Shown here: positions 9,092 to 57,733 of the stretch, one piece after another
How positions within the stretch are numbered: the first letter of the stretch is position 1
How the letters are laid out: every line of letters starts with the position of its first letter
IMG/VR virus record: IMGVR_UViG_3300047547_000041
Location: 1 to 64,000 of that record
Reading direction: 5' to 3' (one strand)
DNA from: a virus
DNA length: 64,000 nucleotides
The notes under the pieces: model-generated
Seen by the model: only the letters and a program-made list of their open reading frames with translations
Told to the model about the DNA's origin: nothing
The model's database searches: none
Position numbers and translations under genes: made by a program

Positions 9092-9706
9092 TTATTTGTA
9101 GTTTTTCAGCTACATTTCAAAAAGTTTCTTTCGATGATCAAGACCGTTCAGACCACCATTGATCTTCTTTGTCAACGCTTCAATGTTTGATGCCAGTGGC
9201 GTACAGTTTCGATCTTTCCAGAACCAGATTGCCGAATCGCAAGCACCCTCAATAGTCTTCAAGAATTCAATAGTTTCGTCAACGGTCTTACCGCGATACT
9301 TTGCGTAAGCCTGAACGTTGAACTTCCCGGTCTATTGAATGAAACCTCTACCAAGGTACTTTGAACCGTCACCAGAGGCTTCGTCACCATTACCCATACG
9401 ATTTGCATACACACGGTTTGCAATCTCTCTAGGCTTTCTGGCGTACTGTTTGGCCTAGCTTGGGGTGAAATACTTCCCAAAGGTCTTCAACAGACCTTCT
9501 TCCGAATAGTTAAGATTCTCGCTCATGTACATGAACCCACCGGACTCATGACCGACTTGCGCCTAAAAAGCACACATCACAGTTTTGTCATCAAGACCAT
9601 TCAGAACAAGCAAAGGGTACATCGATGCCGAAACATCAATCAACCTTTGCTTGGGGATATCTGTAAAAACCGTGATCAACAGTTCTTCAAAAAGTTTTTG
9701 GTTCAT
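9092..9706 (-). CDS. GH19-type endolysin with four in-frame TAG codons, 204 aa
   Basis: A glycoside hydrolase family 19 (chitinase/lysozyme-like) endolysin that cleaves peptidoglycan for lysis. Read with TAG as sense it shows AQVGHESGG (catalytic Glu), then NRVYANRMGNGDEASGDG, YLGRGFIQ[TAG]TGKFN and a helical C terminus. TAG codons are at 9563-9565, 9455-9457, 9332-9334 and 9110-9112. The third replaces the Leu of GRGFIQLTGRANY found in this phage's own gp5. TAA at 9092 is the stop; the last TAG is only 5 codons before it, so the exact end is less certain. I chose ATG 9706 because GGA is 6 bases upstream; ATG 9712 has no room for a ribosome site. Confidence 0.85.
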
Positions 9707-9709
9707 ACT

Positions 9710-9751
9710 CATTCCATCGAGTGTTAGATTTCTTACTTACTCGATGGAATG
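9710..9751 (-). repeat. 13-bp inverted repeat covering the endolysin ribosome-binding site
   Basis: CATTCCATCGAGT (9710-9722) and ACTCGATGGAATG (9739-9751) pair perfectly with a 16-base loop. In minus-strand RNA the 3' arm contains GATGGAATG, the only Shine-Dalgarno-like sequence for the endolysin. The hairpin would occlude initiation. T4 gene e is known to be controlled by a comparable hairpin on early transcripts. Confidence 0.7.
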
Positions 9752-19380: not shown

Positions 19381-21852
19381 TTACCCTAGATCGGTCAAGT
19401 TGTCAGAATACTTCTTGTGGTTGTAGAAAGTCTTGACTTGTCTTCTGTTCGTACCACGGGTAAAGCTAATGTGAATCCATGGATTGTTTGCTGCAACCGA
19501 ATACTCAAGCAAAAGTTGATCATAGACCGGCAATTGTTCAGACAAAGCCTTAGCAATCTCGAAATAGTCTTTCTTCGACACACCACGGAACTGAATGTCA
19601 AACGCTTGACCGTTGATGTGCTGGCTTGTCTTTGATGATGCCGCAACCGTTCTGAAACCAGATGTTACAAACATCGATGGATATGAACGTTTAACATTCT
19701 CAAGAACATTGATGCAACCGGCCTGCAAGTTACAAATGATTTCTTCTTTGGTCAAACCATTTTGATCAACGACTTGATACTTCGACACAGCAGCCTTGGA
19801 TGAAACATCAGCCAAAGTAAAGTTTGGCGACAGTCTCAAATCATCAGGGTAAGATGTAAGACCCGCGATAGCAGCACAGTCAGCCTTAATCGGTGCTTGG
19901 TTAGACGTTTGAACTTCGGCTGTGTCACCGGCTTCCGGCATCTTGGCGGCTTCGTCAGGGTCGATATAACCTTTCTTGATTCCATCAGAAATCATACCCG
20001 AACTGTCACCATCTTCAGGAAGTTCAAACGTCACAACCGATGCGTCAAATCTTCTATTTGGTGTCGGGTCTGATGGGTTGTTTCCACCGTTACCGGGCGA
20101 AGGTTTGGGTTGACCTGAAGATTCTGCAACACCAGAATTCATATGAACTTGGGAACCATCAAGTGCAATGTTTCCGCCAGCCTTGATCGAAACACTATCA
20201 ACAGCTTCAAGTTTGATTTCTTGGGCGACAACGTTCAAGTCTTGCGCAATTCTCAAATTTGCATCACCGGCAATCTCACCGGTCAGGTTTCCGCCAACTG
20301 TAAGGTTGCAATCACCACCAATCGTTACATTGCATTGACCCTTGATGTAGATGTAACCATTTTTGTCAATGATTTCATAATCTGAGCCAACAATGCGAGT
20401 GGTTCGTGAACCAGTGTTGTCAATCTCAAAATATGAACCAGACCTATGGTAAACGTGAATACGTTCACCACCACTGGTATCATCAACTTCAATCACATGA
20501 CCAGACTCTGACTCGAAAACTTTATTGAATGGATACTGCGCTGAATATGGACTAGGTTGTTCAGACCAAGTTTTACCAACAGTGTTGATACCAACAGTTC
20601 GGTTAGAGTCTTTTCTGGCAACAACAGTTTTAGAGATGTTTTCGCCACGGGCAAGACGGTTAGTGTCCTGTTCCTTGACATATCTCGGAAACTTAGAATT
20701 GGGGTCTTTGAAACCAATCTTGCCAGAATTGATGATTTCCTTGTTTGCCTTGATGACACTGAAAGTCTTGGGGTCTTCCATGTTCACAGGTTCGGCAACA
20801 CTTGTTTGTGCGCCACCCATGAAGTATTCATAAAATGTTCTCTTTCGCTGTGCAATATCGGGAGTATTGAACCCCACAGCAGATTTAGCAACATCAAAAT
20901 ATGTCGTAGAAGACTGCGAAATCTTACAACGATCAAAGAAATATGCACACGCAACCTTTGCCGATGCAACAGGATCAGTGTTCAAGATTTCAGGATTTGA
21001 AACAATGTCAATACCGGAAAGTTTCGCATAACGTTCATAGTTTGCCCGACCGGTCAACTGAATGAAACCTCGACCGATGAATTTTGCTCCATCCCCGGGC
21101 ATGGTGTTGCCCAAATTCTTCCCCTTTTTGGTTGTATGACCATAGAGAAATTCTGGCAAGTCTCGTTCATTGTTGGCATACTGGTTAGCCAATTGGTCAT
21201 TATCACCGAAGACAGATGGGAAAACTTCTTTAAGCCTCTTTGCGGAGTATCGGAATGATTCTCTCTTCGGAATCCATGCACATTCACCACCAATGATACC
21301 AAGCAATGAAGAAATTGAGCGTCTTGTGTTAAACCCTTGACTTTTAGCAACATCGATAATCAGTTTGATATTCTGACTTGCGATTGCCGAATTCTGTGTG
21401 CCAGCCGGTGCAACAGTGGGAATCTTCGAAATGTCGTCAAGGTCATCAATCGGGCGAACCGGTTCAGTGGTTTGAGATTGAACCGGCGCGGGGTTCGCAG
21501 AATTTGGAAACTCCTGTTCAACCGGTGCAACACTGATTGATTCGTCACCACCAGATGCTAGAAATGCATCCATTTGTTGAGGAATGCCAACAAACGTGCC
21601 CACAACAAATGGCTTTTGCTGTGCTTCATCTGCAAACCAGATGAAAACCATCGAACCTTCAACAATACCTGTAGGTGAAATGCCAACACCAGAAACCGAA
21701 GCGTTGTTGACCCCTGAGATGATTGTTGCCCAAGGCAATGCATCCGTAGGAACTTCCTCAATTTTTTCGCTGTGCACGCCGAAAACACGCACGCGAACAC
21801 GACCCTACTTCAGAGGATCGTTTCTATCTTCAACAACGCCAACATTGAACAT
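19381..21852 (-). CDS. 5: Baseplate hub/tail lysozyme (gp5-like) with GH19 and peptidase M15 domains, 823 aa
   Basis: The central spike of the contractile tail, used to penetrate the cell envelope. Domains in order: an N-terminal OB fold (MFNVGVVEDRNDPLK[TAG]GRVRVRVFG, TAG at 21805-21807), a GH19 lytic domain (IIGGECAW, FIGRGFIQLTGRANY, about residues 150-300), a repetitive beta-prism (CNVTIGGDCNLTVGG, about 480-570), and a C-terminal peptidase M15-type domain (FTSGFRTVAASSKTSQHING, AFDIQF). T4 gp5 has a different lysozyme and no M15 part. ATG 21852 gives the full OB domain; starting after the TAG would delete its first strand. Confidence 0.88.
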
Positions 21853-21862
21853 CAAAACCCCT

Positions 21863-23095
21863 TTACTTGCCAAGTGACTCTTTAGAACACTCGACAATCA
21901 TATCATGTTGATTACCGATGATCTTGTGACGAATAGCGGTCACAAGATACTTGCCGGAATACTTATCGTCAATGATGCGAGACTTGTTACCATCATCAAT
22001 TGATGCATTTTTAGGCATCGTAACATTTATAACGTTACCGACTTTCAAATCTGTTCGACCGAATACTTCAATCACAATTCGGTGTGCCATGATCGATTGC
22101 AACAGTGTATCGCGTTTCTGAATAGCACTCTTCGCATCAACAAAGAATTCGCCCAAGTATTTGCTTGACTTGGTTACAAACGAAATCTTGGCGTTGGAAC
22201 CAGCAACAACATTCTTGTCAAAAAGTGGCGAACTTTCCAGATGTGGATAAGTGTTGAACTCTTTGAAATAGTCATGAGTATTGGTTGTGATTCTCTTTGT
22301 GGTTGTGTCAAACTCATGCAACTTTGTTGAAAACATACCATTTGACAAACGCTTGAGAAAATCAAAGTCTTCAATGAACTGAATGTTTTTGATCACCGAC
22401 AAACGTTCAGTAGTGTTCAGCGAAGTTCCCGAAGAGTAATTTTCCGCAGACACATCCGAGTCGATATAACTGTGCTTTGCGGGTTGCTTCAAAAGAGTTT
22501 CGACGCTAGAAAATTCATAAGACTTGTTCGACTCAAAAAACAAGTATGATGGTCTGCCAACAGAATTCTTAGAAAGTGATGCGATGTGGTTGATCAGCTT
22601 GAACGGTTCCCAATATGGTGAAATGAATGTCACTGAGTTGTCTGACGGTTCAATGTAAATTTGCCTTTTCGATGCAAGACCGTATGACGCTGTGAAAATG
22701 TCCTTGATCACATCAGAAGTTTTACCCTTGAATGAGCGACTGATTTTTCTGTTCGCATCATTGATCATTTCGGGAGAACAAAAGTGCAAAACATAGTTCT
22801 GCTTTCTTGGCTTTGGCTTTGTTCGGTTAGAGATTCTGTAAACGAAAAAATCCCTTGAGATTGTTTCCCCGTTGATACCACGAATCGAAAAACTCAAAGT
22901 CTCGTTACCCATGATGGGCAGAACGGAAATGAGGTTTTTGGTGTCTTCAATCAAAATGGAACCCGTCATACAGTTTGCAAACATGTCTTCATAGACATTG
23001 ATTTCAACAAAAGAATCAGTCAGGTCAAACCTACCACCGTTGACAGTGATAAGGTCAAGTTTCTCAATATCAACTTTTCCGGGAAAATTGTTCAT
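21863..23095 (-). CDS. 27: Baseplate hub protein gp27-like, 410 aa
   Basis: Forms the trimeric ring between tail tube and gp5 spike. The start LDLITVNGGRFDLTDSFVEI and NVYEDMFANCMTGSILIEDT is the gp27/tail-hub N-terminal domain. Later FTASYGLASKRQIYIEPSDN and the C-terminal barrel region IVIEVFGRTDLKVGNVINVT fit the same fold. It lies 10 bp upstream of gp5, as expected for partners. No TAG in 410 codons. Confidence 0.8.
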   Translation of the reverse strand: MNNFPGKVDIEKLDLITVNGGRFDLTDSFVEINVYEDMFANCMTGSILIEDTKNLISVLPIMGNETLSFSIRGINGETISRDFFVYRISNRTKPKPRKQNYVLHFCSPEMINDANRKISRSFKGKTSDVIKDIFTASYGLASKRQIYIEPSDNSVTFISPYWEPFKLINHIASLSKNSVGRPSYLFFESNKSYEFSSVETLLKQPAKHSYIDSDVSAENYSSGTSLNTTERLSVIKNIQFIEDFDFLKRLSNGMFSTKLHEFDTTTKRITTNTHDYFKEFNTYPHLESSPLFDKNVVAGSNAKISFVTKSSKYLGEFFVDAKSAIQKRDTLLQSIMAHRIVIEVFGRTDLKVGNVINVTMPKNASIDDGNKSRIIDDKYSGKYLVTAIRHKIIGNQHDMIVECSKESLGK

Positions 23096-23575: not shown

Positions 23576-24436
23576 TTAATACCCCGATCCTGTTGTGCTA
23601 CCATCAATCATTGAACGGTCAATAGTTTCAACTTCAGTGAAAGTAAGGTTCATGGTGCAATCATTGAAATTTCCGTCACTGTGCATGTACATTGCATTGT
23701 TTGGTGAATAGTCAACCGAAACTTCAGTCAGTGCGCAAGGCAAAATCTTTGGAATCGATGTGATTTCATTTTTGCCCGTGAAGAACTGAATCTGAAAGAA
23801 TGCAGGGAACAACCAAAATGCGTTACCGGGCGAAATGGAAGGCGCGGCATAGAAACGGAACGTCTTGATGATTTCTTGAACGTCACGATGTTCCTTGGCA
23901 TTCTTGGGGTTGAACGTCCAGTTGAACGTGAATGTTCTGAAGTTGATACCACGGAAGAACTGTTCTTTGAAATCTCGTTCAGTCTGACGAATCGCACCCT
24001 TGATAAAGCCACTAGCCTTTGCGCTGTTGATCGCTTTGCGCTTGATGTAGTCTTGGGTCACACCTTCAACGCCACCTTCTCTAAAGGCTTCCAAAGCCTT
24101 TGCAATGCCGGTCTGTGATTCCTGAGTCCATTCCATGTTCTGATTGAACTGAATGTTAGGCGGAATGGGCAAAAAGATGGAACGGTCAATCTGTTCAACC
24201 CCTTGACGGGTTTTGAAACTGAATTCGAATTTTGACTTCGCATCAGGCGCGGTAACATCGGGATCAATAGATTTGTCCTTGACCTATGAACCATCGCTTG
24301 CAACAGTGGTCAATCGCTTGGATTCTCCCAAGAAAGAATTTGACTTTGTATCGAGAATCAAAATTCTCGTGTATGGAACACCTTCAGTATTTGACAGGCT
24401 GTTCTATTCATTTGGGTAAGCTAGGATTTTGCTCAT
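23576..24436 (-). CDS. Baseplate tail-tube cap protein (gp48/gp54-like) with two TAG codons, 286 aa
   Basis: Joins the tail tube to the baseplate. The conserved C-terminal half shows FTFNWTFNPKNAKE, FYAAPSISPGNAFWLFPAFF and MYMHSDGNFNDCTMNLTFTE, typical of the T4 tube-initiator family. The N-terminal part (MSKILAYPNE...) is only recovered by reading TAG at 24404-24406 and 24284-24286 as sense. I cannot decide between gp48 and gp54. A CTAAATA-type late promoter and AGGA lie just upstream of ATG 24436. Confidence 0.72.
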
Positions 24437-24444
24437 TCTTGGTT

Positions 24445-24476
24445 GTTCCTAAATAGGTATCACGTTATTTAGGAAC
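24445..24476. promoter_or_regulatory. Divergent CTAAATA late-promoter pair in a 10-bp inverted repeat
   Basis: GTTCCTAAAT (24445-24454) and ATTTAGGAAC (24467-24476) form a perfect inverted repeat. It places CTAAATA on the plus strand at 24449-24455 and on the minus strand at 24472-24466. Each is 25-30 bases before the start of the gene it faces, and each arm also supplies the AGGA Shine-Dalgarno of the opposite unit. CTAAATA resembles the T4 late -10 box TATAAATA. Confidence 0.5.
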
Positions 24477-24481
24477 ATGAT

Positions 24482-24925
24482 ATGACATGGATTTTCAACG
24501 ATAAAGAAATGGCATCACTCGAAGATTTCGAGGAAGGTACCATCGGTTTCATCTACATGATCACAAACATTGAAACCGGTAGGAAATATATCGGTAAGAA
24601 GATTCTGACAGGTGTTCGGAAGGTTCAGAGAGTTGTGAAACTCAAAACAACCGGCGAAAAGAAAAAGAAAAGTGTTCGCAAGACTGTTGAAAGTGATTGG
24701 TTGACCTATTACGGTTCATCACCAGAACTTGCAGCCGATGTTGAAAAGTTTGGCCGCGAAATCTTCAAAAGAGAAATCATTCACCTTTGCCGTAGCAAGG
24801 CCGAAATGAGCTATCTCGAAACCAGAGAAATCTTTACCCATGATTGTCTTTTGAAACCGGAAGAATACTACAACGGATGGGTAACTTGTCGCGTCACGCG
24901 CGCACACCTTAAGAATCTTCAATGA
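24482..24925 (+). CDS. GIY-YIG-type endonuclease-like protein, 147 aa
   Basis: A lone plus-strand gene inside the minus-strand block. The motif pair GFIYMITNIETGRKYIGKKI is a GIY-YIG core (GFIY...KYIG). It is followed by a basic stretch (GEKKKKSVRK), DWLTYYGSSPEL, then FKREIIHLCRSKAEMSYLET with a possible catalytic Glu. Related proteins are common in T4-like phages next to virion genes. Whether it is a mobile or a housekeeping nuclease cannot be told. Confidence 0.7.
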   Translation: MTWIFNDKEMASLEDFEEGTIGFIYMITNIETGRKYIGKKILTGVRKVQRVVKLKTTGEKKKKSVRKTVESDWLTYYGSSPELAADVEKFGREIFKREIIHLCRSKAEMSYLETREIFTHDCLLKPEEYYNGWVTCRVTRAHLKNLQ

Positions 24926-25332: not shown

Positions 25333-26271
25333 TTATTCTTCGGGGTAGTCGTGATTACGCAACAGTTGGCGAAGTTGAACCCAACGCCGGAAGTTACCGC
25401 TACACGGAATCGAGAACAGACCCTTAGAATCTCGCTTGATGTGGGTCACACCAGCATCAGTGAAATCCTGAATCGGGGTGCCCTGGTGTTCAGCGGGTGA
25501 GCTATGCGAACGTTCTTCAGTGCGCACCGGTTGATCAAGGTGCAGCTTCTGAGCAATGTCATCAGCCTTTTCAACAGAAGTGTCGTGCTTTCGATAAGAA
25601 GTCTGTGCGCAACATGACATGGAAATCTTCTTCGCGGTTTCCAAATCGATAACGTCACCACGTTCATCAAAGAAAACTTGCTTACCTGCAACGAATTGTT
25701 GATTCACATATGGAAGGTGCCATTGACCGGGCTCAAGCAGAACCGGTTCAGAATTGTTCAAAGCGGTTTCCATGAGGTGCGCCAGATAGTTAAATTCCGG
25801 TTGCGCGGCATCATGATTGCGAAGCCAGAAAAAGTTCTTCCAATCGGTTGCGGTCAGAACCATCTTTTGCATCATGATGGGTTCCAAGAATCGCCCGGCA
25901 AGTTGCTTGTGGAACTTCTTCTGATCAAGAATGGTGGCAGCGTCGATACAGTTGCCAACAAGCACACGCCAAATAGCTTTCACTTCTTCAAGTTCTTCAC
26001 CTTCAAACTGATCATCGGCACTCATGCCGGGCTTGTTGATACCCCAAAAGTTAGGTTCAAAGTAATTGCCATTTCGAATGTTTTCAATTTGCTTGGCAAG
26101 CGGAATTGCGCGAGAACTCGAACCATTCTTAGAAACCATCTTGTGCGTGTTCTATTCGGCCAAAATCGGGCGAGGGAACTCGACTTCGTATGTAACCAGC
26201 GGAACGCCAATACGCGAAATCGAATGAGCAATGATGTTTACAGAAGTCTTGTTAGGATGAAAGTTACGCAA
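25333..26271 (-). CDS. thyX: Flavin-dependent thymidylate synthase ThyX-like, 312 aa, one TAG
   Basis: Makes dTMP from dUMP with FAD and folate. The N-terminal part is PLVTYEVEFPRPILAE[TAG]NTHKM, TAG at 26152-26154, then SKNGSSSRAIPLAKQ (the SSRAIP pattern of phage ThyX), WKNFFWLRNHDAAQPEF and LGEPGQWHLPYV-like LLEPGQWHLPYV. At the TAG position family members have a hydrophobic residue, so Leu fits. No ATG is available in frame; TTG 26271 follows GGAG at 7 bases. The start is the least certain point. Confidence 0.82.
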
Positions 26272-26302
26272 TGTAATACTCCATAAATGTTGATGACGAA
26301 CT

Positions 26303-26353
26303 ATTGTACCACAGAAATGCAATGGGGCAACTAGTCCCTTAACCAGTTGCCCC
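26303..26353 (-). promoter_or_regulatory. Hairpin at the tRNA-array end plus TGTGGTACAAT promoter for thyX
   Basis: GGGGCAACT (26324-26332) and AGTTGCCCC (26345-26353) form a 9-bp hairpin downstream of the tRNA array, a likely 3' boundary although no T-tract follows. The minus-strand extended -10 TGTGGTACAAT (26313-26303) comes next, with TTGCCC 16 bases upstream inside the hairpin arm. The 160 bp from 26354 to 26513 hold no gene I can support. Confidence 0.5.
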
Positions 26354-26513
26354 AAGGGTCTTACCAATACTTCCTGCGAAGAAAAGCCTATGACGACGAT
26401 CACGGGGTTAAAATGGCCTTGTGTGTATCAACCCATCCTACACACAATTTTTTAGCGATGTTGCGCGTTACAACAAGGGAAAACGTTGCACTAAGCGTTG
26501 CTGGCCTTTCTTG

Positions 26514-26590
26514 TGGTCTTCCCGGTAGGATTCGAACCTACGACCCTCTGCTCCCAAAGCAGATGCGCTACCAGACTGCGCTACGGAAAG
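26514..26590 (-). tRNA. tRNA-Pro(TGG)
   Basis: Complete cloverleaf on the minus strand. The acceptor stem is CTTTCCG/CGGGAAG and CCA is encoded. The anticodon stem-loop is TCTGC-TTTGGGA-GCAGA, so the anticodon is TGG. The T-arm contains GGTTCGAATCC. It is the last tRNA of the array. Confidence 0.92.
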
Positions 26591-26608: not shown

Positions 26609-26693
26609 TGGTACCCCCGGTCGGAATCGAACCGACACGCCTTTCGGCGGCGCTTTTAGAGAACGCTGTGTCTACCAATTTCACCACAGGGGC
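26609..26693 (-). tRNA. tRNA-Leu(CTA): amber-decoding tRNA
   Basis: An 85-nt class II tRNA on the minus strand. The acceptor is GCCCCTG/CGGGGGT with A73 and encoded CCA. The D-arm includes GGTAGACAC, typical of tRNA-Leu. The anticodon stem is GCGTT/AGCGC around the 7-base loop CTCTAAA, so positions 34-36 are CTA, reading UAG. The variable arm is CGCC-GAAA-GGCG. Body and length match the tRNA-Leu(CAA) at 27805-27889. A73 plus the long arm argue for leucylation, which needs experimental proof. Confidence 0.92.
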
Positions 26694-26720: not shown

Positions 26721-26794
26721 TGGTGCCCATGCACGGTATCGAACCGCATTCTATGGCTTACAAAACCATTGCATCACCTTAATGCTTCACGGGC
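26721..26794 (-). tRNA. tRNA-Thr(TGT)
   Basis: The acceptor is GCCCGTG/CATGGGC with A73 and encoded CCA. The anticodon stem-loop is ATGGT-TTTGTAA-GCCAT, giving anticodon TGT. The T-arm is GCGGTTCGATACCGT. Length is 74 nt. Confidence 0.9.
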
Positions 26795-26826: not shown

Positions 26827-26917
26827 TGGCGGGGTGTGTGAGATTCGAACTCACGGAACGCTATTAACGTTCGCCGGTTTTCAAGACCGGTGCATTAAAC
26901 CACTCTGCCAACACCCC
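26827..26917 (-). tRNA. tRNA-Ser(TGA)
   Basis: A 91-nt class II tRNA. The acceptor is GGGGTGT/ACACCCC with G73 and encoded CCA. The anticodon stem-loop is CCGGT-CTTGAAA-ACCGG, giving TGA. A long variable arm (GAACG...CGTTC) and a T-arm GAGTTCGAATCTC are present. G73 with the long arm is the serine signature. Confidence 0.92.
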
Positions 26918-27096: not shown

Positions 27097-27171
27097 TGGC
27101 TCCGAAGGTAGGGATCGAACCTACGACCAATTGATTAACAGTCAACTGCACTACCGCTGTGCTACTTCGGA
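27097..27171 (-). tRNA. tRNA-Asn(GTT)
   Basis: The acceptor is TCCGAAG/CTTCGGA with G73 and encoded CCA. The anticodon stem-loop is GTTGA-CTGTTAA-TCAAT, anticodon GTT. The T-arm is GTAGGTTCGATCCCTAC. Length is 75 nt. It lies immediately downstream of the HNH gene. Confidence 0.9.
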
Positions 27172-27692: not shown

Positions 27693-27695
27693 TTT

Positions 27696-27783
27696 TGGAC
27701 TCCCGTGGAGGTATCGAACCTCTCGACTTCCATCCTGCGGTTTAATGTCGTCGGCTTAGAAGACCGATGCGGGGACACGGGAG
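27696..27783 (-). tRNA. tRNA-Arg(TCT)-like gene without a normal D-arm, possibly degenerate
   Basis: The acceptor is CTCCCGT/ACGGGAG. The anticodon stem-loop is TCGGT-CTTCTAA-GCCGA (anticodon TCT). The T-arm is GAGGTTCGATACCTC. Only 9 bases separate acceptor and anticodon stem, leaving no room for a D-arm. An unusually large region, CGAC...GTCG with a 19-base loop, replaces the variable arm. It abuts the HNH gene, so damage by insertion or deletion is possible. Confidence 0.5.
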
Positions 27784-27804
27784 GTCTAAAAACTTAAAAC
27801 TTGT

Positions 27805-27889
27805 TGGTGCCCCGGGTCGGACTCGAACCGACACTCCTTTCGGAACCGGATTTTGAATCCGGTGCGTCTACCAATTTCACCACCGGGGC
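27805..27889 (-). tRNA. tRNA-Leu(CAA)
   Basis: An 85-nt class II tRNA. The acceptor is GCCCCGG/CCGGGGC with A73 and encoded CCA. The anticodon stem-loop is CCGGA-TTCAAAA-TCCGG, anticodon CAA. D-arm and T-arm (TGTCGGTTCGAGTCCGAC) are nearly identical to the amber tRNA at 26609, so the two are recent paralogues. Confidence 0.93.
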
Positions 27890-30881: not shown

Positions 30882-33800
30882 TCAATTGTTTTTCTTGTAC
30901 TGCCTACCGAAGACGTAGTTCGCGTATTCCTTGTAGCCTTGACCCTTCTTGATCATCAAATCTTCGCCATGAGTCATGATGTTGAACGATGTTGAGTCAT
31001 TCTCAATTCTGACAACAGGGCCGCGACTCGTTCTATACACTTCAACATCAGGGTTCTTAAACATGCCGTCTTCATATTCACGATAGTCAATAACACCATC
31101 ATTTGTTGGAATCATACCATCAGTGAAAATGAATTCGATCACATGTTTAGGAGTTTGATACTTCATGGTGGACTCGTCAATTTGAACCGATTCGGTAAGC
31201 GAGTCGATGCTTGTTTGCAACCATTCACGCAGTTTCTTAGTTGACGTTGTACGAACCTTGAAAACCTTCACAATCCGAATCATCATCTGTGGCGCGTTCA
31301 CCGCGTATTCGGGCGAAACCAAACGACTCGGATAACCATTTGGCAAACCAGTGTTACCACCATACCACCAAGTCTTACCAATTTCACTATTGGAAGTTGG
31401 CTCATAAACTTCAAGTTGGAACAAATAACCAATTTCGTCATATGTTCGCGCGTAACCATGATCCGAAATGTACTGTTGTGACTTGTCGGCAGTTTGGGTG
31501 TAGTAAATGCCGTTGACTTTCGCTGTACCTTCCTGTGCCTTAACTTTTACATCATTGACCTTATAGTTAGCAAGATAATAACCCTTTTTGTAGGCGTCAT
31601 CAAGGCTTGGGAAAGGATCATTTATAGCACTGATTTCAACCGCTGGCTTAGTGTCATCAAATCGTCCGAATCTGAGATTCTTACATTCCAACATTTTACC
31701 AGCAACCTTAATCGGCCCGCCACTCTTCAAAAGTTTGAAACCGTATCGAGTGATGAAAGTTGCAGCGCGAGAACCGCAACCATGGAAAACATCAGTTCGC
31801 AATTTGTACTGAACATTGTTGTCGGCCCAAATTTTCAACATTGCGGCAATCATCTTTTCATCACTGATTTTCGATTCAAAAATGTCTTCAACAATCATCG
31901 CAAAGTCACCATGCTTACCATTTGAACGATCAGCAAGATATTTTGTGGCTTCGATCCTATCCTTCAGCGATGGGTTTGCTGGAGTAATCATCTGAGGTTT
32001 AACGTAAGGCGTGAAATTATCAAAATCGATGGTATCGGGATCAACACCTTCCATGATCGAATCTGTGTCAACTTCATTAACCCACATCAACTTATGAATA
32101 AGACCGGCTTCCAGTGGTTCATTAGGAACAATCGGGCTACCTTCATTGTAAGACTTTGCAACACGTTCACCAGCGGCAAAGTAAATGACCTTCTTCTTAG
32201 CTTCTGGTGGAAGCGACTTCATCGCTTCAGTAAACCCAGGTTCATCATTTCGCGCAGCAAAGAATCTGTAAGCACTTTCGATAACTTTCTCTTTCTTCAG
32301 GTTTCGAGACTTGTCATATTGACGGAACGCCAATTCGATAGTTTTTTGATCACTGATAAGACTTGCAAATTCCGTGATATCAACAGCTTGTGAACCAGTC
32401 GGGGAGAAAATCTTTTGACCGACCGACAATGAGTTCATCGCGATATTGTAGAGTTCGGGGAAAAGTTGAGCCAACTTTGTCGCAACATCAGAGTCCATGA
32501 TAGACAGTGATGGAACGTTTTTGATGTTTGGTTCGGTACCGTAATTCAATTGGGCATCTTTCCAAAGATTCACAATTCGTTCGGCATCGGCCATACTACC
32601 GGCACTATTGAGCAAAATACCTGAGAATGACTGATTGATTTGATCAGCGTAGTTTTCAAGAATGAATTCTCTAAACTTCTTTGAAATTTTGCTGGCGACA
32701 CGGAACAAAGAACCGATGAAAATTTCATGAACGTTCGTTCTATAACCATCGAGAAGTTTGTCAAACAGTGCAGGATGAACATCAACGTAATGATCCAATG
32801 AGGCGTTCAACAAATCGAACGAATCGTGCACTTCGGCATGGCGAATCATGGAAGTACAGGTTTCAGTTTCCAAGATTTTATGCGCAACGTTTGTGTGAAT
32901 GTTGACAACCGAATCATGGAAGTACAGCGCGAAGTTGCCATAGTTTTTGTTGTAGAACGCCGAAATACACCAGTCAACGAATTTTTCGTTAGTTTTACGG
33001 TATTCAATGATTTGAGCGATTGCTTGGAAATGAGTATCAGAAAATTTGTCGGCAGGGTGAATATCAGCAATCAGTCTAACAAGATTGGCAAGGTTTGGCG
33101 GAATGCATGAGGTGTCATAGTACCTCGAATAACTATCAAACTGTTGCAAAAATGTTTTATACTTTGATGCGTCATCAAGATTGAACGAATTTGCATCCTT
33201 TTCATATTTTGCAAAAATCTCGTTCAGTGAACCACTTTTGTATTTTTCCAGTTTGAAAGAAATTGGAACAAGTTTGTAGTGACCCAAGTATTCCGTGCTA
33301 TCAAAATTCTTCAGTGCTTCCATGAGTGCATCATATTCAGCATCATCAGAAACCACATACTGATCATATGTGTCCATGGCAAGTGCCAAAATAACATCGG
33401 GGGTTTTCTCGAATGTAAATTTGTCATCGCCTATCACACCAACGGGGAAGAACTGCTTACAAGCTCTGAACGCGCACACGCTACCACCACTAAGATGGGG
33501 TTTGAATTCCAACTCGCCGCTGCGCATAGAATAGTAGCTGTAATTCGAAAAATCGTCCTTACCCGTGTTCGTCAGCGTAGAACCCGGGAAAATCTCAGAG
33601 AAGTTGACCAACATCCAACGTTGGGCGGAATTGATTGTACCAAAGTCAACACTTGATGGAGCGTTGAAAATATACTGAGCCAGCATCAACCAAAAGAATT
33701 CATTACCGGTTGCCTTTTTGTAGAAACCAGAATTCACCAAACCCTTCATGAAAGAATCAAACCGTGCGCCGGAATCGGATTCATCCACAACAAATCTGAC

Positions 33801-35219
33801 GGTGTTTTTCGGATATTGTTCAAAAGCATGGAATGCATAATCATATGCACTCTTCGAACTGTAATAGTATGACGAACGATAGAAATACTTGTTGACCCCC
33901 TTTGAGTTTCGTTCTGTTGAAATGTTGTACTCATATTTTGTTGCCTTGAAATATGCATCAAAAAACTTCTTGGCATTATCCTTATCGGCGTTTGCGATGG
34001 CATCATTGATTTTGTAAGAGTATTTGTACATGTCATCATTAGCGTTGATGTATTCCAAAAACTCTGTAACATCAACACGCTTGGCAACCTTATCAAATTC
34101 ACCATTGATCAAGTTGACAAACATGTTCTTCATTTGCAATGGCGTAAACGATGATGGCGCGGCCAAAGTCTTACTACCCTTTGGTGCACGACCGCGTTTT
34201 GCCGGTGCTGTAGCAACCGGTGCCGGTGAGGGAGTTGCAACCGGTGCCACAACCGGTGCCACAACAGGTGCAACAGGTGCCACAACCGGTGCAGCAACAG
34301 GCGCGGGAGTAGGTGCAGGCGTTGCAACGCGAGACACAAACGGTTGCGAGAATTGCGAAACGGGCGTAACCAATGGTTGAACAATTGGACGAACCACGGG
34401 CTGAACAACGGGTGCTGTAGGCACAACAGTGGCAACAGGTTGAACAATTGGACGGGGCGGGGTCACAACCGGTGCTGGAACTGGTGTGGGTGCCACAACA
34501 GGTGCCGGTGCTGGAACTGGTGTGGGTGCCACAACAGGTGCCGGTGCTGGCGTGGGCGCAGGGGTTGCAACCGGCGCAGGCGCGGGCGGAGTCACACCAG
34601 CTTTAGGTGTACCCTTGGGACCAAGTTCACCAACAATCTTAGGGTCATACGAATCGAAACCGTTTGAGCCAACATAGTGAGTTGCAAGCCGCTTAAATTC
34701 AGCAGCAACCTTTTGACGAGCCTTAGAGTAGCCTTGAATGTCTTGCCAAACAAGAACACCAACTTGTTGAATGCTGTATGTGCCGGTGCGCCACTTGGTG
34801 AACTGATTCTTCAGAATCGTCGATGGTTTGAAATCCGGATCACGCAACATTTCCTTTGCAAGACCGCGCAAAATAGTTTCATCAATTTGACTTGACGACA
34901 AGTTGCCTTGCTTGATCTTGGCGAACAGAAGCGTGAACTTGTCGGCCAGAACCCGACTCATAACACCACCTTCAACAGCCAGCTTCACCGACAGTGAAAT
35001 GTCATTGTTTGCGTCACCAATGTTGTCAAACCGAATCGACTTGTCATTGATGAAATAGTTCTTAACAGCGTGACCACCTTGAGTATCACCAATGGCATAC
35101 AGACCAAGAATGCCAAAAATGTTGATAATCAGTGCATCAGACTATTGTTGCTTGTCGGCAACCAATGCATCCTTTTCTTGGGCATTGGTGTAAAAGGTGT
35201 TTTCATACAAACGTTTCAT
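30882..35219 (-). CDS. Giant protein with Pro/Ala linker and ADP-ribosyltransferase-like domain, 1445 aa, one TAG
   Basis: The largest gene of the window. TAG at 35142-35144 (ADKQQ[TAG]SDALIINIF) joins the first 25 residues. Residues about 205-345 are a Pro/Ala/Val/Thr-rich linker with APAPV/TPAPTPAP repeats, ending in basic PAKRGRAPKGSK. A long alpha-helical region follows. Near residue 1145 is VFHGCGSRAATFITRYGF and near 1238 GIYYTQTADKSQQYISDHGY, the H...Y pattern of PARP-type ADP-ribosyltransferases. A virion-internal, injected host-modifying enzyme (as T4 Alt is) is an inference from size and domain. It follows an early-type region. Confidence 0.7.
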
Positions 35220-35755: not shown

Positions 35756-37474
35756 TTACTGACAAGCCTCACAAATTTTTGGTTCGCTTGATTCTTGTGC
35801 AGCGTCACCATCTCGTGTTGAGTAGATGTAGTACAAACCCTTACAGTATGGATCGTTAATCGCTTGGCGGTGCAGCTTAACAATATCCCGTGGATTTGCA
35901 TTACTAGGGATGTACAGGTTCAAACTCTGACCCTGATCTTCATAGCGTTGACGCGCCGATGCCAACCGAAGATGTGCGCCCATATCCATCTCAAACGCAG
36001 TCTTGAAAACCTTCTTTTCATGGTCAGACAGCCAATCAACATCTTGAACCGAACCACGGTTTGCACCAATCTTCTTAAGAATCTCTGGTTTGTGCTTACC
36101 ACGTTCTTTCATGATCGCCAACAGATATGGATTAACGCGATGAACCAATCCAGCGGGAGTAGTCTTGGTGAAAACCATAGCGGTATCGGGGTTGATACCT
36201 TCAGACACACCACCCATGATTTCGGCGGTTGACTTTGTTGGCGGATTCATCAAACGTGTCGCGTTACGAATACCAAGACCCTTACAGTGCTTAGGTTCAC
36301 CCAAAATGCTTGCCAGCCACTTCGTTGCTTGCATAGATTCTTCATCAAAATGCTTTGCAATCTCAAGGTTCAGAATGTGGGCTTCAAGCGATTCAAACGG
36401 AATCATCTTACTCATGAACAGCGAATGAAGACCCATCTTGCCAAGACCCAATGCACGGAAATCTTCGGCAAACTTGACAGACTTTTCAAAACCGGGCACG
36501 CCACGGGCAAGTTCAATGAATTCTTGGTTAATGCAATCCAAGAAAACGGTCATCCAGAAAACAGCCTTGTTCGTCTTGATCTTGTCCCAATGGATCAGAT
36601 TGATAGACGACAGAACGCAAACAAAGTTGTATTCTTCGGGGTCCGATGGCAGACACACTTCGATACAGAGGTTACTTGCGCGGATTGGATAACCCGAACG
36701 CTTAATAGCTTCTGGTGCAAGTGCATTAGCCTTGTCAATAAAGAAAATGTAACCCTTACCGTAGGTCATGCGCAGTTTCATGATTTTCTTGAAACGACGA
36801 TTCGCTTCCTTGTCACGGGAATTCAGCTTGTCGATGAACGTTTGTTTGAAAATCCAGCCCATGTTGAAATCATCGGGGGTTTCGTTCAGGAATGTCCAAA
36901 CTTCATCAAAGTCGCCATGTTCAACATCAAGATAAAACGCGCATGAACCTCGACGGGCGTTACCTTGCGAAACATATGTCATGTCATGAATAATGCCAGC
37001 AATGATTGGCATCACACCTTCCGCCTTACCACCAATTGAAATGGGGGTGCCACGACAACGGATTCCACTCAGGTCAACGGAAGTGCCGAAACCCTTCTTC
37101 GTGTGCATTGCCAAAAGATGCTTGGTACTGTAGATGCCATCAATGCTATCGGGTGGCACAGCACCCATACAAGAAATCGGATACCCATTTGTTGTACCGG
37201 TATTACTCAGAACAGGGGTGGAACCACTGAAGATGCCTTCCCAAAAGAAATTGAAAAAGTTTTCGTATGCCTCTTCGCGATATTGTTCGGGGAGATGCCT
37301 TGCAGCAGTCTTTGAAATTCGCTTGTACTGATCCTTAACGTTTGTAACGCCATTCAGATACTTCTTTTTGAACTATTGCCAACCGGCAGTGTTCCACCAT
37401 TCTGGCATTGTTGCATCAGCTTGCATCTGCTTTCGTTCTTCTGAAAGCAGTTCATATTCAGTTTTGTCACTCAT
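35756..37474 (-). CDS. nrdA: Ribonucleotide reductase large subunit NrdA-like, 572 aa, one TAG
   Basis: Reduces ribonucleotides to deoxyribonucleotides with NrdB. Visible are TPVLSNTGTTNGYPISCMGA (first active-site Cys), NLCIEVCLPSDPEEYNFVCV (NLC with Glu, second Cys), and the C-terminal redox pair EPKICEACQ. TAG at 37373-37375 is in AGWQ[TAG]FKKKYL, where homologues read '(Y/W)QLFKxKY'. The protein is shorter than E. coli NrdA (about 760) and lacks an N-terminal ATP cone. It lies 6 bp after nrdB. Confidence 0.88.
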
Positions 37475-37480
37475 TATTCA

Positions 37481-38497
37481 TTACTCCAATTCTTCATCGG
37501 CTTCAAGATAATCAAAATCGTCTTCAATCCACTTACGGGTATATTGCGAACCGGTAGCGTTGAAAAAGTCAATCACGTTGTAAGAGTTAATGTCATCATA
37601 GAACCATTCCCGGATAGGGTTGTAGGTAACGACAAACAAACTCTTCAGACCCAAATTGTGCAGACACTCATTCAAGCGAGACTTAACAAAGTTCTTCAGT
37701 TGAGTTGCGGTGATGCCCTTGATCGGACCCTTATCGAAGATTCTATCAGCAATGTAGGCTTCGTGTTCATAGATCGTTTCGGCAACAGCGTACAACGCCC
37801 GTTCGATATCTTCGCGCTTACCGTAACGTTGCTCAAGAATGCCATCTTCGATACAATCATTCATCAAATGACGGTAGCCGGTTGCACCAGCCAAACTATG
37901 AATGTTTTCGTCAACCAAACTGAAGTTCACGCCCGCAACAACGTTCTTCGCATCCGACTTACCGTTAGCTTGAAAGTGCTTGAGATAAGCAAAACTCGAA
38001 TAGAGAATGGCACCCTCAACCATCGAGAACGCGCCAAGCGAAACCTAATCATTTTCGTGGTTGACAATCGAATCAATGAAATCCATTCTGGCCTTGAGAA
38101 CAGGATCATTTGCATATTCCTCATAAAATTCATCAGTATCAAGACCGAAAATCTCATTGATCTTCTGATAGAAAGGCTTATGAATCGCCAACTCGAACGC
38201 TGCAAAGGTTGTACCCATGCGGGTAAACTCTGGACCCTTCATGATCTTGATGAAACGATTTGACCAATACTCTTCACCGGCAAACATTTCGTACTTGGTG
38301 AACAGCTTCAGGGTGTACAAAATGCCATGACGGGAAGATTCCGGCATTTCCACCATGATGTTTTGCTTATCCTTGTGCAACTTCACTTCTTCGGGCTACC
38401 AAGTGCCCGCAAGTTGCTTGTTTGTAAAATGTTGACTGTACTGAGGAAACGCCTCAACAATTTTACCTCTTCGATCTTCGTATGCCCGTACTTTCAT
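37481..38497 (-). CDS. nrdB: Ribonucleotide reductase small subunit NrdB-like, 338 aa, two TAG
   Basis: The radical-generating subunit. Metal ligands are seen in FAAFELAIHKPF (ExxH), FSMVEGAILYSSFA (Glu) and DENIHSLAG (ExxH). TAGs at 38396-38398 (GTW[TAG]PEEVKL) and 38045-38047 (HEND[TAG]VSLGAFSMVEG) occupy hydrophobic positions in the family. ATG 38497 overlaps the stop of the primase gene by 4 bp. Read as stops, they would leave three useless fragments. Confidence 0.88.
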
Positions 38498-39939: not shown

Positions 39940-41457
39940 TCATTGTAGCACAGGAAGGTTGATCAGTTTCGTGGTGAAATCATGTTGTTCTTCGGCGTAT
40001 AACGTGACACGTTTACCAAAGTGATCCATACCAAAATTGACGACAACGGATTTCCCAATTTTCACTGACATATCATCAGCAATGTCATACAGGTTTGTCA
40101 TGTTCTTACCGACCTTGAGTCTCAAAAGACGACCAATCGATTGAATGATGGTGTTACCAGACTTCATCGGATGGGCAAAGATCAAATTCTGCAAATTGGG
40201 GATGGACAAACCGGTTGAAAGGGTTTGGTAGTTGCTCACAATGATGCAGTCTTCGTTGTTGGCAATCTTGCGAATACTTTCCTTTTCTTCACTTGTGTTA
40301 TCGCCAGTGACAAGGTAAACAGGCTTCTTAGAAATTTTACACAGTCGCTCATAAATGTAATCAGACTGCTTTTCTTTGAATCGAGTTAAAATCAAAGTGC
40401 AACCACTCAGCGCATTTGCCATACCACAAATCATGTTATTGCGGTTTCGGTTTGTAACAATGTAGTCAATCTCGGTTTCGTACTCGAACTTTTTCTTCTT
40501 ACCACTGACATTGACCAAACCCTTAACAATTTCAGGGTCATGCTTGACAACAATGCATTTGATAGTGATGGCGGTTGCCTTACCACTGTCAATCAGTTCT
40601 CGCGTTGTGGTTGTCTTGTGGATGTAACCTGTGATTGCCCGAATCACCATTTCGTTACACTTGGTTTCCTTGAGTGAACCGGTGAAACCAAGACGCCATG
40701 CAGCATTGTGACAATTGTTAGCGATTGATTGAATAGACTTGCTGGACGCTTTGTGTGCTTCATCCAACATCTATGCACCATATTGCGAAAAATAGTCACT
40801 GTCTTCTTTACTGATCGATTGATAGGTAGAAACAATGATTCGCTTGGTGGTGTTCTTGTCTTGACCGGCAGTAATCTTGTGAAGGTTTGCAGAAACATCA
40901 AACCCATTGTTTCGGCTGTATTCAATGAAGTCAGTTTCCATCTGTGTCACAAGCGCAACAGTTGGCACGACCAAAAGAATTTTTGCATCAGTGACATTAA
41001 GTAGATGCCGAATGATGGTATAGATGATCAGTGACTTGCCCGATGATGTTGGAGAATGGAACAAGACTTTCTGACTGTTGATACCGTCAACAATCGCGTC
41101 AATCTGGTAGTCATAAACCTCGATGGGAACACCCTCACGCATGATTTTGAAGTCTTTACACAACTGCACAACTTCTTTTCGTGTGGTGACTGCAAGGTTT
41201 TCACCAAAACCATCGAATGTGTATTGAACACCAAGTTGTTGCAAGGCTTCTTCGATGTTGGTCAACAGACCAGAACCAAAGTTTCCGTATGCATCAACAC
41301 ATGAGATGGTACCATCCCAAACCTTAGCCTTGAATCGTGGATGATATTTGTAACCATCAGCGAAGAAACAAAACTTTTCCTTCAACTTTGAAATGACCAA
41401 AGAATCTGCGCCCTTGACTCGGTAAACAGCCTCTGAGCGTTTTTGAATAACTGCCAT
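39940..41457 (-). CDS. uvsW: UvsW-type DNA/RNA helicase, 505 aa, one TAG
   Basis: A superfamily 2 helicase that remodels replication forks and R-loops in T4. Walker A is HSPTSSGKSLII (near residue 139). Motif II is YGA[TAG]MLDEAHKAS, TAG at 40771-40773. Motif III is RLGFTGS and motif VI QSIGRLLRLK. The residue before the Walker B aspartate run is always hydrophobic, so Leu fits and Gln would be unusual. Total length equals T4 UvsW. The gene overlaps uvsY. Confidence 0.9.
39942..39952 (-). promoter_or_regulatory. Extended -10 TGTGCTACAAT
   Basis: Minus-strand TGTGCTACAAT lies 28 bases before the LSm-like gene and overlaps the end of uvsW. It fits GTGnTAnAAT of T4 early promoters. The -35 falls in coding sequence and is weak. 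Confidence 0.45.
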
Positions 41458-42348: not shown

Positions 42349-42612
42349 TCAGTTAGCGAAAACGTTGTTAGAACCTGTTGAAACTGTGTGACCGCAATTG
42401 ACCGCATCACCTTGACGAACGACCCGAATGCCTTCAGCAAACACGTTTGGAGATGCTTCTACAATATTCAGTGGTTGCTCATGATTTGGGTGGTCATCAA
42501 CCTTGTCACCAAGTGTGGAAACTTTGGAACCGTTGACAAACACAGTGCTTGCCCCGGGTCCGATGATGACGCCACCATTCACATTGTCAACATTAACTCT
42601 GGCTACTTTCAT
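42349..42612 (-). CDS. PAAR-repeat spike-tip protein (gp5.4-like), 87 aa
   Basis: Sharpens the end of the gp5 needle. It has MKVARVNVDNVNGGVIIGPG, STVFVNGSKVSTLGDKVDDH and GIRVVRQGDAVNCGHTVSTG, the glycine-rich PAAR repeats with His and Cys for a bound metal. Two upstream ATGs (42624, 42615) are also possible. The start lies inside the gp55 gene end. Confidence 0.8.
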   Translation of the reverse strand: MKVARVNVDNVNGGVIIGPGASTVFVNGSKVSTLGDKVDDHPNHEQPLNIVEASPNVFAEGIRVVRQGDAVNCGHTVSTGSNNVFAN

Positions 42613-43144
42613 CATCACTTTCATAGAAGTCTTCGAGACTGCTATTTACTTTCGACTTGTTTTTCTTCTTACTGTCGCGCTTATTCTTGAGTCTGGTGTA
42701 TTTGTCCGAAAGCACTTCATTGATTTTGATGGCTTCGTTAATTTCGTCAACAACATCTGTATCACCTTCGATATTCAACGAATTGCCACTTGCATAAATC
42801 AGTTCCATCTTACCGAACTCTTCATTTTCTTCCTTTTTGATGAAGTCAACATATTCGCGCCATGCGGTTGTTGTGAAGTAGCCAAATGGATTAGGAGACT
42901 TTTCGGGATCGAACTTGTGGGCGACACTGAAACACTTCTAAATCGCTTCCCCCACCATGTCATCACGGAATGAATAACCGTTGAAGTTGTGACGGGAAGC
43001 TAGGTTCTCGCAAATGTCAATGATGGCCTTGCCAATGTCATTGGGCATCGTAGGGAAATCCGCAAAACTTTCCTTGGTCAGACACTCCGCACGGTAAGCC
43101 CTCAGACTTTCAACCAACTTTTGCTTATCAACATACATGCCCAT
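42593..43144 (-). CDS. 55: Late-transcription sigma factor gp55-like, 183 aa, one TAG
   Basis: Directs host RNA polymerase to late promoters together with the sliding clamp. Conserved parts: IGKAIIDICENLASRHNFNG, then DDMVGEAI[TAG]KCFSVAHKF, DPEKSPNPFGYFTTTAWREY and the C-terminal clamp-binding-type SSLEDFYESDDE. TAG at 42938-42940 sits in the polymerase-binding region at codon 69, so full-length sigma requires amber decoding. GGAG lies 8 bases before ATG 43144. Confidence 0.85.
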
Positions 43145-53526: not shown

Positions 53527-54181
53527 TAAAATTCTGACCGAACCGGGTGGTCCCGCAGCAATCATTCCACCAAACATCTACGGTAAAAAGTTTGACGTTT
53601 TCTAGTGGGTCAAGACGCAAAAGAACTATTCGACCGAACGTTCTATGCGATGGTTCAAGCAAAAGATCGGAATGCTTTCGCTCAAGCCCAATGATCCTAG
53701 ATTGCGTTCAACTCGCCAGTACGCCAAGTTGTCTATGTCTAGGCCACATTTCTTCGTCTATGAGGCGGAAACGTCCTCTGTGAAGGGTATGGAAGTCTAT
53801 GACCGGTTTCCGCTTGTTCTGCCGTTTGCCGTGAACCTTGAGAACGGTACCTTCCATGGCATCAACTTCCACCACATTCCACCAGACCTTAGACTTGTTG
53901 TGTTTGATCGTCTGATGGCAGCAAGTTCACGCGGGTTCAGTGAAGAATCAAGAATTCGTGCTGAATGGCAAACTCTGAAAGCGTTGGCAAACCATCCGGT
54001 CATTTCTCAAGCTGTGAAATGTTATCGTTTTGATAGAGTGAAATCCCTCTACATTCGTCTGAGTTTGGAAGAATTGCTCATGAGTATCTTCATGCCAGTT
54101 GAATGGTTTGTTGACCTGAAATCCGGCAGAACCGTAAATAAATCTAGGGTTTTTGCACAGATTAACAGGAACATGCGCTAA
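53519..54181 (+). CDS. Conserved virion-associated protein, 220 aa, one TAG
   Basis: Starts GTG 53519, 8 bp inside gp4. TAG at 53603-53605 (KKFDVF[TAG]WVKTQK) is read as sense. The core YDRFPLVLPFAVNLENGTFH plus GINFHHIPPDLRLVVFDRLM is a pattern of T4-like virion proteins ('LPLVLPF..GF.G.NLHYLPP..R'). Its exact role is unknown to me. It sits between gp4 and the tail tube protein. Confidence 0.65.
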
Positions 54182-54927
54182 TGTCATTCGAGAATTTCAG
54201 AACAATGGTTAGAACGGTCGGTTAGGCAAGAACTAACCGATTCAAGTTCCTGTTGACCGTTCCAGCAAAAGTTTCGGCAAAACTTGCATCATCTGATGCA
54301 CAGATGCCAATTCAACAAATTGAGTTGTTGTGTAAGTCGATTAATGTGCCGGGCGTGACATTCACAACGAATGACTCAAACAAGGATGTGATCAATCATC
54401 GTCCTTACATCACTGATTACAACGAATCTGAAATCAGTGCAACATTTTACGTTGATGCGAAGTATAACCTTCGAACACTGTTTGATGCGTGGAAAAAGGT
54501 GATCGTCAACGAAAACATGAACATCGGATATTGGGATGACATGGTTTCAAATGGCAGCACGATCAAAGTTTATCGTGATACACCCCAAGGCGAAATTGTT
54601 GAAGCATCTTACAAATTCCAAGGTCTGTTGCTCAAATCTTACACCGACTCGTCTTACAACTGGTCAAACACATCAGCACCCCTTGAAATTACTGCAAATT
54701 TCACGTTTGCCAAAATGACTCCCCTCAACTTGTATTCTGATGCAAGAAGTGTTCCAGAAACTGATGGCAACGTTGAATTGAGGGGTATCGAAGTTCTGAA
54801 CACCATTCCTTATGGTGAGATTTTGCCAGATATCCCATTCGGATCACTTGATATCAACGATGCAACGATTCCCGTTAAAATCGGTGATGATTTCAAGTAT
54901 GACAATGACCTGAATCCCTTCAAATGA
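54181..54927 (+). CDS. Tail-tube (gp19-like) protein, 248 aa, one TAG
   Basis: Starts MSFENFRTMVRTVG[TAG]ARTNRF, TAG at 54223-54225. Homologous tube proteins have G-L-A-R-x-N-R-F here, so Leu is favoured. Next are ELLCKSINVPGVTFTTNDSN and ITDYNESEISATFYVDAKYN, the tube-fold strands. It is longer than T4 gp19 (163), so it may be a baseplate tube relative rather than the main tube. Confidence 0.72.
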
Positions 54928-56046: not shown

Positions 56047-56338
56047 TTTCGCGGATTATCTTGCTAGGTTCAGTGGTTCTTTGGCTGGCTTGTTGCTAAG
56101 TTGGGCCATTGCGCCATTGCCGTTCAATTTTAGACTGGTGCTGTTTATCTGCATCAGCGTTGGCATTTGTTTTGCCGGTGCGCCAATCACATTTGAACTT
56201 TTGCAAGGTATCGTGTCAACAATTCATGCAAACTTTTCCGGCTATTTCATCGCCGCTTGTTTGAACGGTATCTTCTAGGTTCCGCTGGTGATGATGATCA
56301 ACAAGTTCTTGAACGATAGGTTCAAACCTAAAGAATGA
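56039..56338 (+). CDS. Membrane protein, 99 aa, one TAG
   Basis: Starts GTG 56039 and overlaps the previous gene by 8 bp. It has LAGLLLSWAIAPLPFNFRLV, then LVLFICISVGICFAGAPITF, and a third span FSGYFIAACLNGIF[TAG]VPLVM, with TAG (56276-56278) inside the hydrophobic run. The tail is basic (KFLNDRFKPKE). A second holin or membrane-regulator candidate. Its stop overlaps the terL ATG. Confidence 0.6.
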
Positions 56339-57703: not shown

Positions 57704-57733
57704 TCTCAAAATGTGTTAAATTTTAGGAACAAG

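Follow-up and report, generated by a model that had tools for sequence, protein, structure and literature searches.

The window analysed here comprises bases 1–64,000 (64,000 nucleotides) of the 144,840-bp virus record IMGVR_UViG_3300047547_000041, and the remaining bases of the record were also analysed. At positions 26,609–26,693 of the minus strand, the window encodes a tRNA with the anticodon CUA, which is proposed to read the amber codon UAG (TAG in the DNA) as leucine. Judged by its gene content, the record is that of a T4-like myovirus. It carries portal, terminase, sheath, major head protein, scaffold, protease and baseplate gp5/gp6 genes, together with NrdA/NrdB, UvsW, UvsX, a DnaB-like helicase, a family B DNA polymerase and a gp55-like sigma factor. 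The closest match to its portal comes from a Synechococcus phage of fresh water (45%), and UvsX shares 55% identity with its counterparts in T4-like coliphages. No nucleotide-level relative of a 24-kb stretch of the record was found among GenBank phages. The tRNA(CUA) belongs to the following cluster.

26609–26693, minus strand: tRNA-Leu(CUA), proposed UAG reader; class II, A73, G1-U72, anticodon loop CUCUAAA (ARAGORN, Rfam)
27805–27889, minus strand: tRNA-Leu(CAA), reads UUG; probable parent paralogue (81% identity and 16 identical 3′-flank bases)
26514–26590, minus strand: tRNA-Pro(UGG) (ARAGORN)
26721–26794, minus strand: tRNA-Thr(UGU) (ARAGORN)
26827–26917, minus strand: tRNA-Ser(UGA) (ARAGORN)
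27097–27171, minus strand: tRNA-Asn(GUU) (ARAGORN)

ARAGORN calls a tRNA with a CTA anticodon at exactly 26609–26693, and the Rfam tRNA model matches the same interval with 48 bits (E = 2.7e-7). The anticodon arm reads GCGUU-CUCUAAA-AGCGC. Among 169 tRNAs compared, the nearest neighbours of tRNA(CUA) are the tRNA-Leu(CAA) of the same phage (identity 0.81) and other Leu-type CUA tRNAs, and the identities to the nearest Gln, Tyr and Ser tRNAs are 0.62, 0.59 and 0.53. The D-arm motif G.NAGACNC occurs in 8 of the 18 Leu tRNAs, in none of the 5 Ser and 4 Tyr tRNAs, and in no other standard isotype. A73 also fits leucine, and the Ser tRNAs in the compared set have G73. Its nearest neighbour, its D-arm motif and its discriminator base all mark tRNA(CUA) as leucine-type in sequence. 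The class II fold, A73 and leucine-type D-arm described in the earlier sequence-only reading are thus borne out. That reading had also called the two Leu tRNAs nearly identical; they are close paralogues, but at 81% identity, with mismatches mostly in the paired stems and the anticodon, "closely related" is the better description. Both share 16 identical bases of 3′ flank past the CCA. Duplication of tRNA-Leu(CAA) followed by a CAA to CUA change would be the simplest history.

The identity features of tRNA(CUA) that bear on its putative charging with leucine are the leucine-type D-arm, A73 and the long variable arm. The anticodon is not among the features that bacterial leucyl-tRNA synthetase recognises; therefore, the host enzyme should still charge the altered tRNA. 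ARAGORN labels it tRNA-Pyl, a label that the program prints for any CTA anticodon and solely on that basis. In pyrrolysine tRNAs, the variable loop is very short. The long variable arm of tRNA(CUA), its similarity to tRNA-Leu and the hydrophobic, not Lys-like, residues found at TAG positions (see below) make the chance that UAG encodes pyrrolysine in this phage negligible.

Two further elements lie in the tRNA cluster. An HNH endonuclease ORF (PF13392; 27180–27692, minus strand) contains one TAG. A tRNA-like element at 27694–27785 (minus strand), whose variable region is long and whose anticodon may be UCU, is not called by ARAGORN and weakly matches the tRNA-Sec model (23 bits).

TAG is a sense codon in this phage and is not used for termination. 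With TAG read as sense, the called ORFs of the window contain 34 TAGs; these interrupt recognisable genes as the sequence-only reading had stated, although it counted about 37. Over the whole record, 135 ORFs were called with 55 internal TAGs spread over 38 of them. Their ends are TAA in 71 and TGA in 64 cases, but the caller permitted only these two ends, and two independent homology checks were added for that reason. The first used 3,673 ORFs from relatives with the standard code as queries against the record. Twenty-eight TAGs lie inside alignments backed by at least two relatives, and no reliable in-gene TAA or TGA was found in the conserved genes; among seven TGA hits, one is the terminal stop of its own gene and the others are antisense to the NrdA, sheath and capsid genes. 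Chance or damage would also have produced TAA, TGA and frameshifts. In the second check, the next stop-type codon past the last homologous codon of 61 genes was TAA in 32, TGA in 27 and TAG in 2, which agrees with the earlier statement that the genes end in TAA or TGA. The relatives, which are almost without internal TAGs, end 120 of 1036 homologous genes (11.6%) in TAG. At that rate, the probability of zero TAG stops in 135 genes is 6e-8.

TAG-bearing genes of the window include the following.

9092–9712, minus strand: GH19-type endolysin, TAG at codons 50, 86, 127 and 201 (solved homologues, homology search)
19381–21897, minus strand: gp5-like baseplate hub/tail lysozyme, TAG at codon 31 (solved homologues)
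23576–24478, minus strand: baseplate tail tube cap, TAG at codons 10, 25 and 65 (ORF calls)
25333–26403, minus strand: thymidylate synthase, TAG at codon 84, column Phe/Val/Leu (column scoring)
35756–37474, minus strand: NrdA, TAG at codon 34, column Met 38, Leu 15 (column scoring)
37481–38497, minus strand: NrdB, TAG at codons 34 (Leu 29/50) and 151 (Leu 46/50) (column scoring)
39940–41457, minus strand: UvsW-like helicase, TAG at codon 229, column Val/Met/Ile/Leu (column scoring)
42593–43144, minus strand: gp55-like late sigma factor, TAG at codon 69, a misfit to leucine (Glu 15/16) (column scoring)
54181–54927, plus strand: tail-tube-like protein, TAG at codon 15 (ORF calls)
56335–56715, plus strand: terminase large subunit N part with intein N half, TAG at codon 83, which directly precedes Walker A (column scoring)
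56702–57703, plus strand: homing-endonuclease-like ORF with 4 TAGs
57713–59485, plus strand: intein C half with terminase large subunit C part, TAG at codon 81, column Val/Ile/Leu (column scoring)
62696–63334, plus strand: phage protein of unknown function, TAG at codon 18 (column scoring)

A 1445-aa ORF (30882–35219, minus strand) also has a TAG, at codon 26; its single PHROG match is to a family of unknown function.

To score the meaning of TAG, homologous columns from standard-code relatives were weighted and all 20 residues were scored for each codon, in a manner similar to Codetta. As a control, the same scoring recovered 59 of 61 sense codons, the failures being AGG (Lys for Arg) and GTA (Ile for Val). 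Over 31 TAG columns, the totals in nats were Leu +9.2, Ile +1.4, Val −1.0, Met −6.2, Tyr −9.3 and Gln −23.3. Leucine thus fits TAG better than any other residue in these alignments and wins 83% of bootstraps over the TAG columns. A hydrophobic residue is in the majority in 24 of the 31 columns. The strongest leucine columns are NrdB 151, UvsX 56 (37/43), codon 32 of the ORF at 110487–110900 (11/11) and NrdB 34. The Ile, Val, Met and Phe consensus at other sites is not explained by a single mutation to TAG from those residues. In comparisons with solved homologues, endolysin codon 50 aligns with Leu/Ile and codon 127 mostly with Leu/Ile; together with the hydrophobic columns at UvsW 229 and NrdA 34, these sites agree with the sequence-only reading, which had listed conserved sites where TAG replaces Leu or a hydrophobic residue. 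The gp5 site is mixed, since codon 31 aligns with Leu in T4 gp5 and with Gln in 9f4a, from another phage. The tail tube cap and tail tube had no solved-structure match.

In the literature searched, glutamine is the residue reported or assumed in amber-recoded phages (PMC11210395, PMC13037316, PMC10607447, PMC7886860, PMC8346664). It is the reported assignment of UAG in Lak, crAss-like and phAss phages (translation table 15), with peptide support in two crAss-like phages. In the present record, leucine beats glutamine by about 32 nats, and glutamine, which the sequence-only reading had named as the contrary outcome, has no majority in any well-covered TAG column. The tRNA is of class II and far closer to Leu than to Gln tRNAs, so that a glutamine reading is very improbable. 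Tyrosine deserves consideration because bacterial tRNA-Tyr is also of class II and a single change converts its GUA anticodon to CUA. Three TAG columns favour Tyr/Phe/Trp: portal 163, codon 235 of the ORF at 97058–98023 and codon 139 of that at 98817–99638. However, tyrosine stands well below leucine in the totals and wins 3.6% of bootstraps, and tRNA(CUA) resembles Tyr tRNAs neither in overall identity nor in the D-arm motif. We therefore consider tyrosine only slightly less improbable than glutamine.

Several observations weigh against a simple leucine assignment. A residue other than leucine wins 17% of bootstraps. The leucine fit of 9.2 at TAG columns falls below that of equal samples of TTG (23.7 ± 5.4, 2.5% quantile 12.9). 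Five TAG columns favour other residues: DnaB 337 (Glu 44/46) and gp55 codon 69 are glutamate positions, portal 163 is a tyrosine position (Tyr 57/76), and the two neck/tail columns at 97058–98023 and 98817–99638 are the Tyr/Phe/Trp sites given above. GAG, TAT and TAC, codons of these misfit residues, are each one step from TAG. A weaker fit than that of true leucine codons looks like a young or leaky assignment, not a settled synonym.

The distribution of TAG points in the same direction. It occurs at 1.5 per 1000 codons in the record, compared with 22 per 1000 for TTG. In the homology-covered parts of genes, 18 of 27 TAGs are among the first 100 codons, against a permutation mean of 11.0 (sd 2.2, p = 0.002). 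Wrong start calls were considered as a cause of this bias and rejected, because it persists in homology-covered genes. The rare codons AGG, ATA and CTA are likewise enriched in the first 100 codons of these genes. Four homing-endonuclease-like ORFs have about 10 TAGs per 1000 codons, as against 1.5. The sheath, major head protein and scaffold genes have none, and only about three would be expected there, the tube protein included. A U directly after UAG is depleted (4/55 vs 19%, p = 0.014). Mid-gene TAGs are found at DnaB 299 and 337, NrdB 151, UvsW 229 and portal 163. The rarity, early placement, endonuclease-ORF density and Glu/Tyr sites suggest that the reassignment is recent, works with imperfect efficiency and is in competition with release factor 1 (RF1) of the host. 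A slow rise of TAG is also to be expected, because the sole synonymous one-step route, TTG to TAG, is a transversion.

Clustering near gene starts might also be expected if the TAGs stemmed from nonsense mutation, misassembly or population variation in a decaying phage, or if re-initiation bypassed the early ones. Nevertheless, many TAGs are mid-gene, reliable TAA or TGA codons are lacking inside the conserved genes, and the phage encodes a tRNA that matches TAG and does not use this codon as a stop; such explanations are as unlikely as tyrosine. More serious is ambiguous decoding, in which leucine is inserted but RF1 or near-cognate host tRNAs also act on UAG, so that the products are mixed and the codon is kept mainly where harm is small. 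The low TAG density, the enrichment in the first 100 codons, the dense homing-endonuclease ORFs, the depletion of UAGU and the Glu/Tyr misfit columns would all fit this view. Near-cognate insertion of Gln, Tyr, Asp and Val at UAG has been observed in RF1-less E. coli (PMC6207430). On the other side, the mid-gene UAGs in the essential DnaB, NrdB and terminase genes require that decoding be efficient enough. We regard ambiguous decoding as a distinct possibility, though not the more probable case; it refines the leucine assignment and does not exclude it. The early UAGs in core genes (terminase, NrdA, NrdB, UvsX, protease) could, in principle, form a translational gate set by the phage tRNA-Leu(CUA). 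If so, phage proteins would be made only once the tRNA accumulates, or only in cells that carry it. Because the early bias is common to other rare codons, such a deliberate gate is possible but not needed, and we consider it rather unlikely.

Taken together, the column scoring, the leucine type of the tRNA and the absence of TAG as a stop support the leucine assignment, and it is very likely that the phage reassigned UAG from stop to leucine through its own altered tRNA-Leu. A copy of tRNA-Leu(CAA) would have gained the CAA to CUA change and a reshaped anticodon stem. During infection, the product would place leucine at the UAG codons of replication, nucleotide-metabolism, virion-assembly and lysis genes, and phage genes would terminate only at UAA and UGA, both read by host release factor 2. 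In the record, no match was found to the RF-1/RF-2 release factor family (PF00472) and no class I Leu/Ile/Val-type synthetase domain, and the controls were positive in both searches (control genomes for PF00472). Therefore, decoding probably competes with host RF1 and is less than fully efficient. We infer that it takes place in a standard-code host.

The gene for the large terminase subunit is broken at Walker A (56335–59485, plus strand) into an N part, the endonuclease-like ORF and a C part. The N part joins the intein N half at PRQCGK/CVSGDT, and the intein C half joins the C part at YYTNGILSHN/TQTTAAF (slashes mark the junctions). This split resembles the atypical split inteins AceL-TerL and GOS-TerL (PMC11766414). 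Rfam finds no intron in the window, and by this test the split terminase is not an intron case. A functional terminase would need both UAG readthrough and trans-splicing, to judge from this gene arrangement. Elsewhere in the record, the DNA polymerase is split into ORFs of 540 and 324 aa (115992–120014 of the record, minus strand; L005:13992-18014), between which lies a 357-aa HNH-like ORF with 4 TAGs. A SegE-like GIY-YIG homing endonuclease ORF with one TAG (24443–24925 of the window, plus strand) partly overlaps the opposite-strand tail tube cap gene.

The E. coli amber suppressor supP (leuX, CAA to CUA) inserts leucine, and its charging by leucyl-tRNA synthetase needs no anticodon. It shares the anticodon change and the isoacceptor with the tRNA of the window. 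However, supP is a laboratory suppressor mutation, whereas the window tRNA is fixed beside its unmutated paralogue and TAGs have accumulated in many genes. The code 15 phages (Lak megaphages, beta/zeta crAss-like phages and phAss-1) resemble the window phage in having a phage CUA tRNA, in-frame TAGs in core genes, TAA/TGA gene ends and standard-code relatives. They differ in that TAG means Gln, reached by the CAG to TAG transition, whereas the window phage would have reached Leu by a transversion; in the window phage, TAG is also rare and is found in replication genes in addition to late ones. RF2 is encoded by Lak phages, but a search of the present record found none.

UAG = Leu (code 16) had been noted as known from algal mitochondria. 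This is correct but incomplete, because besides chlorophycean mitochondria it occurs in the nuclei of an uncultured phyllopharyngean ciliate lineage (PMC11687900). In these ciliates, as probably in the window phage, the CUA tRNA derives from a tRNA-Leu close to the CAA/UAA isoacceptors (PMC11687900). Code 16 systems are eukaryotic nuclear or organelle codes, whereas the present case is a phage genome. Among 180 phage suppressor tRNAs in a theta ribozyme study, the isotypes were Gln (69.4%), Trp (19.4%), Ile (10.0%) and Tyr (1.1%), and Leu is not listed (PMC10879173). Like the window tRNA, these are phage-encoded, and predicted isotypes beyond Gln exist among them. No published TAG = Leu phage was found in the literature searched, the theta ribozyme and crAss work included, which does not prove priority.

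A pattern for Leu-type CUA tRNAs was run over 2.9 million IMG/VR contigs and gave 18 hits; several of these are genuine class II tRNAs with a CUA anticodon, and their contigs contain internal TAGs. In the phage lineage L031/L304 (IMGVR_UViG_3300028833_005988), TAG scored Leu +15.2, Ile +5.7 and Gln −10.5, with 59 of 59 controls recovered. Its relative L300, from goat reticulum and on a contig binned as Clostridia, scored Leu +14.1 and has a nearly identical tRNA and the same genes, from which L031 is probably of rumen origin. L305, a close standard-code relative of this lineage, has no internal TAG in 5,018 codons. These phages share the Leu-type tRNA(CUA) and the leucine score with the window phage. 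However, they have other DNA polymerase and primase-helicase families and are an unrelated phage type, with a higher TAG density and no closely related tRNA; the early-TAG bias of L031, counted by eye, is weak. Because this unrelated lineage also scores leucine, UAG = Leu appears, on these genomes, to have evolved at least twice in phages, independently. The earlier suggestion of a rare or new variant fits the literature searched, but TAG = Leu is not unique to the window phage.

L045 has a Leu-like tRNA(CUA) and no clear residue (Tyr 2.5 from 6 columns), and L034, L035 and L046 have 0–1 scorable TAG columns. With these few columns, L045, L034/L037/L042, L035/L038 and L046 are further candidates for TAG = Leu. 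Leu-like class II CUA tRNAs were also seen on the possible phage contigs L288, L292, L296, L298 and L301, whose bins are Hyphomicrobiales, Planctomycetota, Bryobacterales, Polyangiaceae and Microbacteriaceae.

These results support the view that phage amber recoding has been reached more than once with an amino acid other than glutamine. Gene callers and surveys assume TAG = Gln (code 15); consequently, the proteins of TAG = Leu phages would be mistranslated and such phages would go unseen. The two unrelated leucine lineages suggest that phage codes evolve via any tRNA whose anticodon can change without losing its synthetase, in these two cases the one for leucine. The window phage appears to be early in codon capture, with few TAGs at low-harm sites and the parent tRNA nearby, and this early state makes codon capture directly testable.
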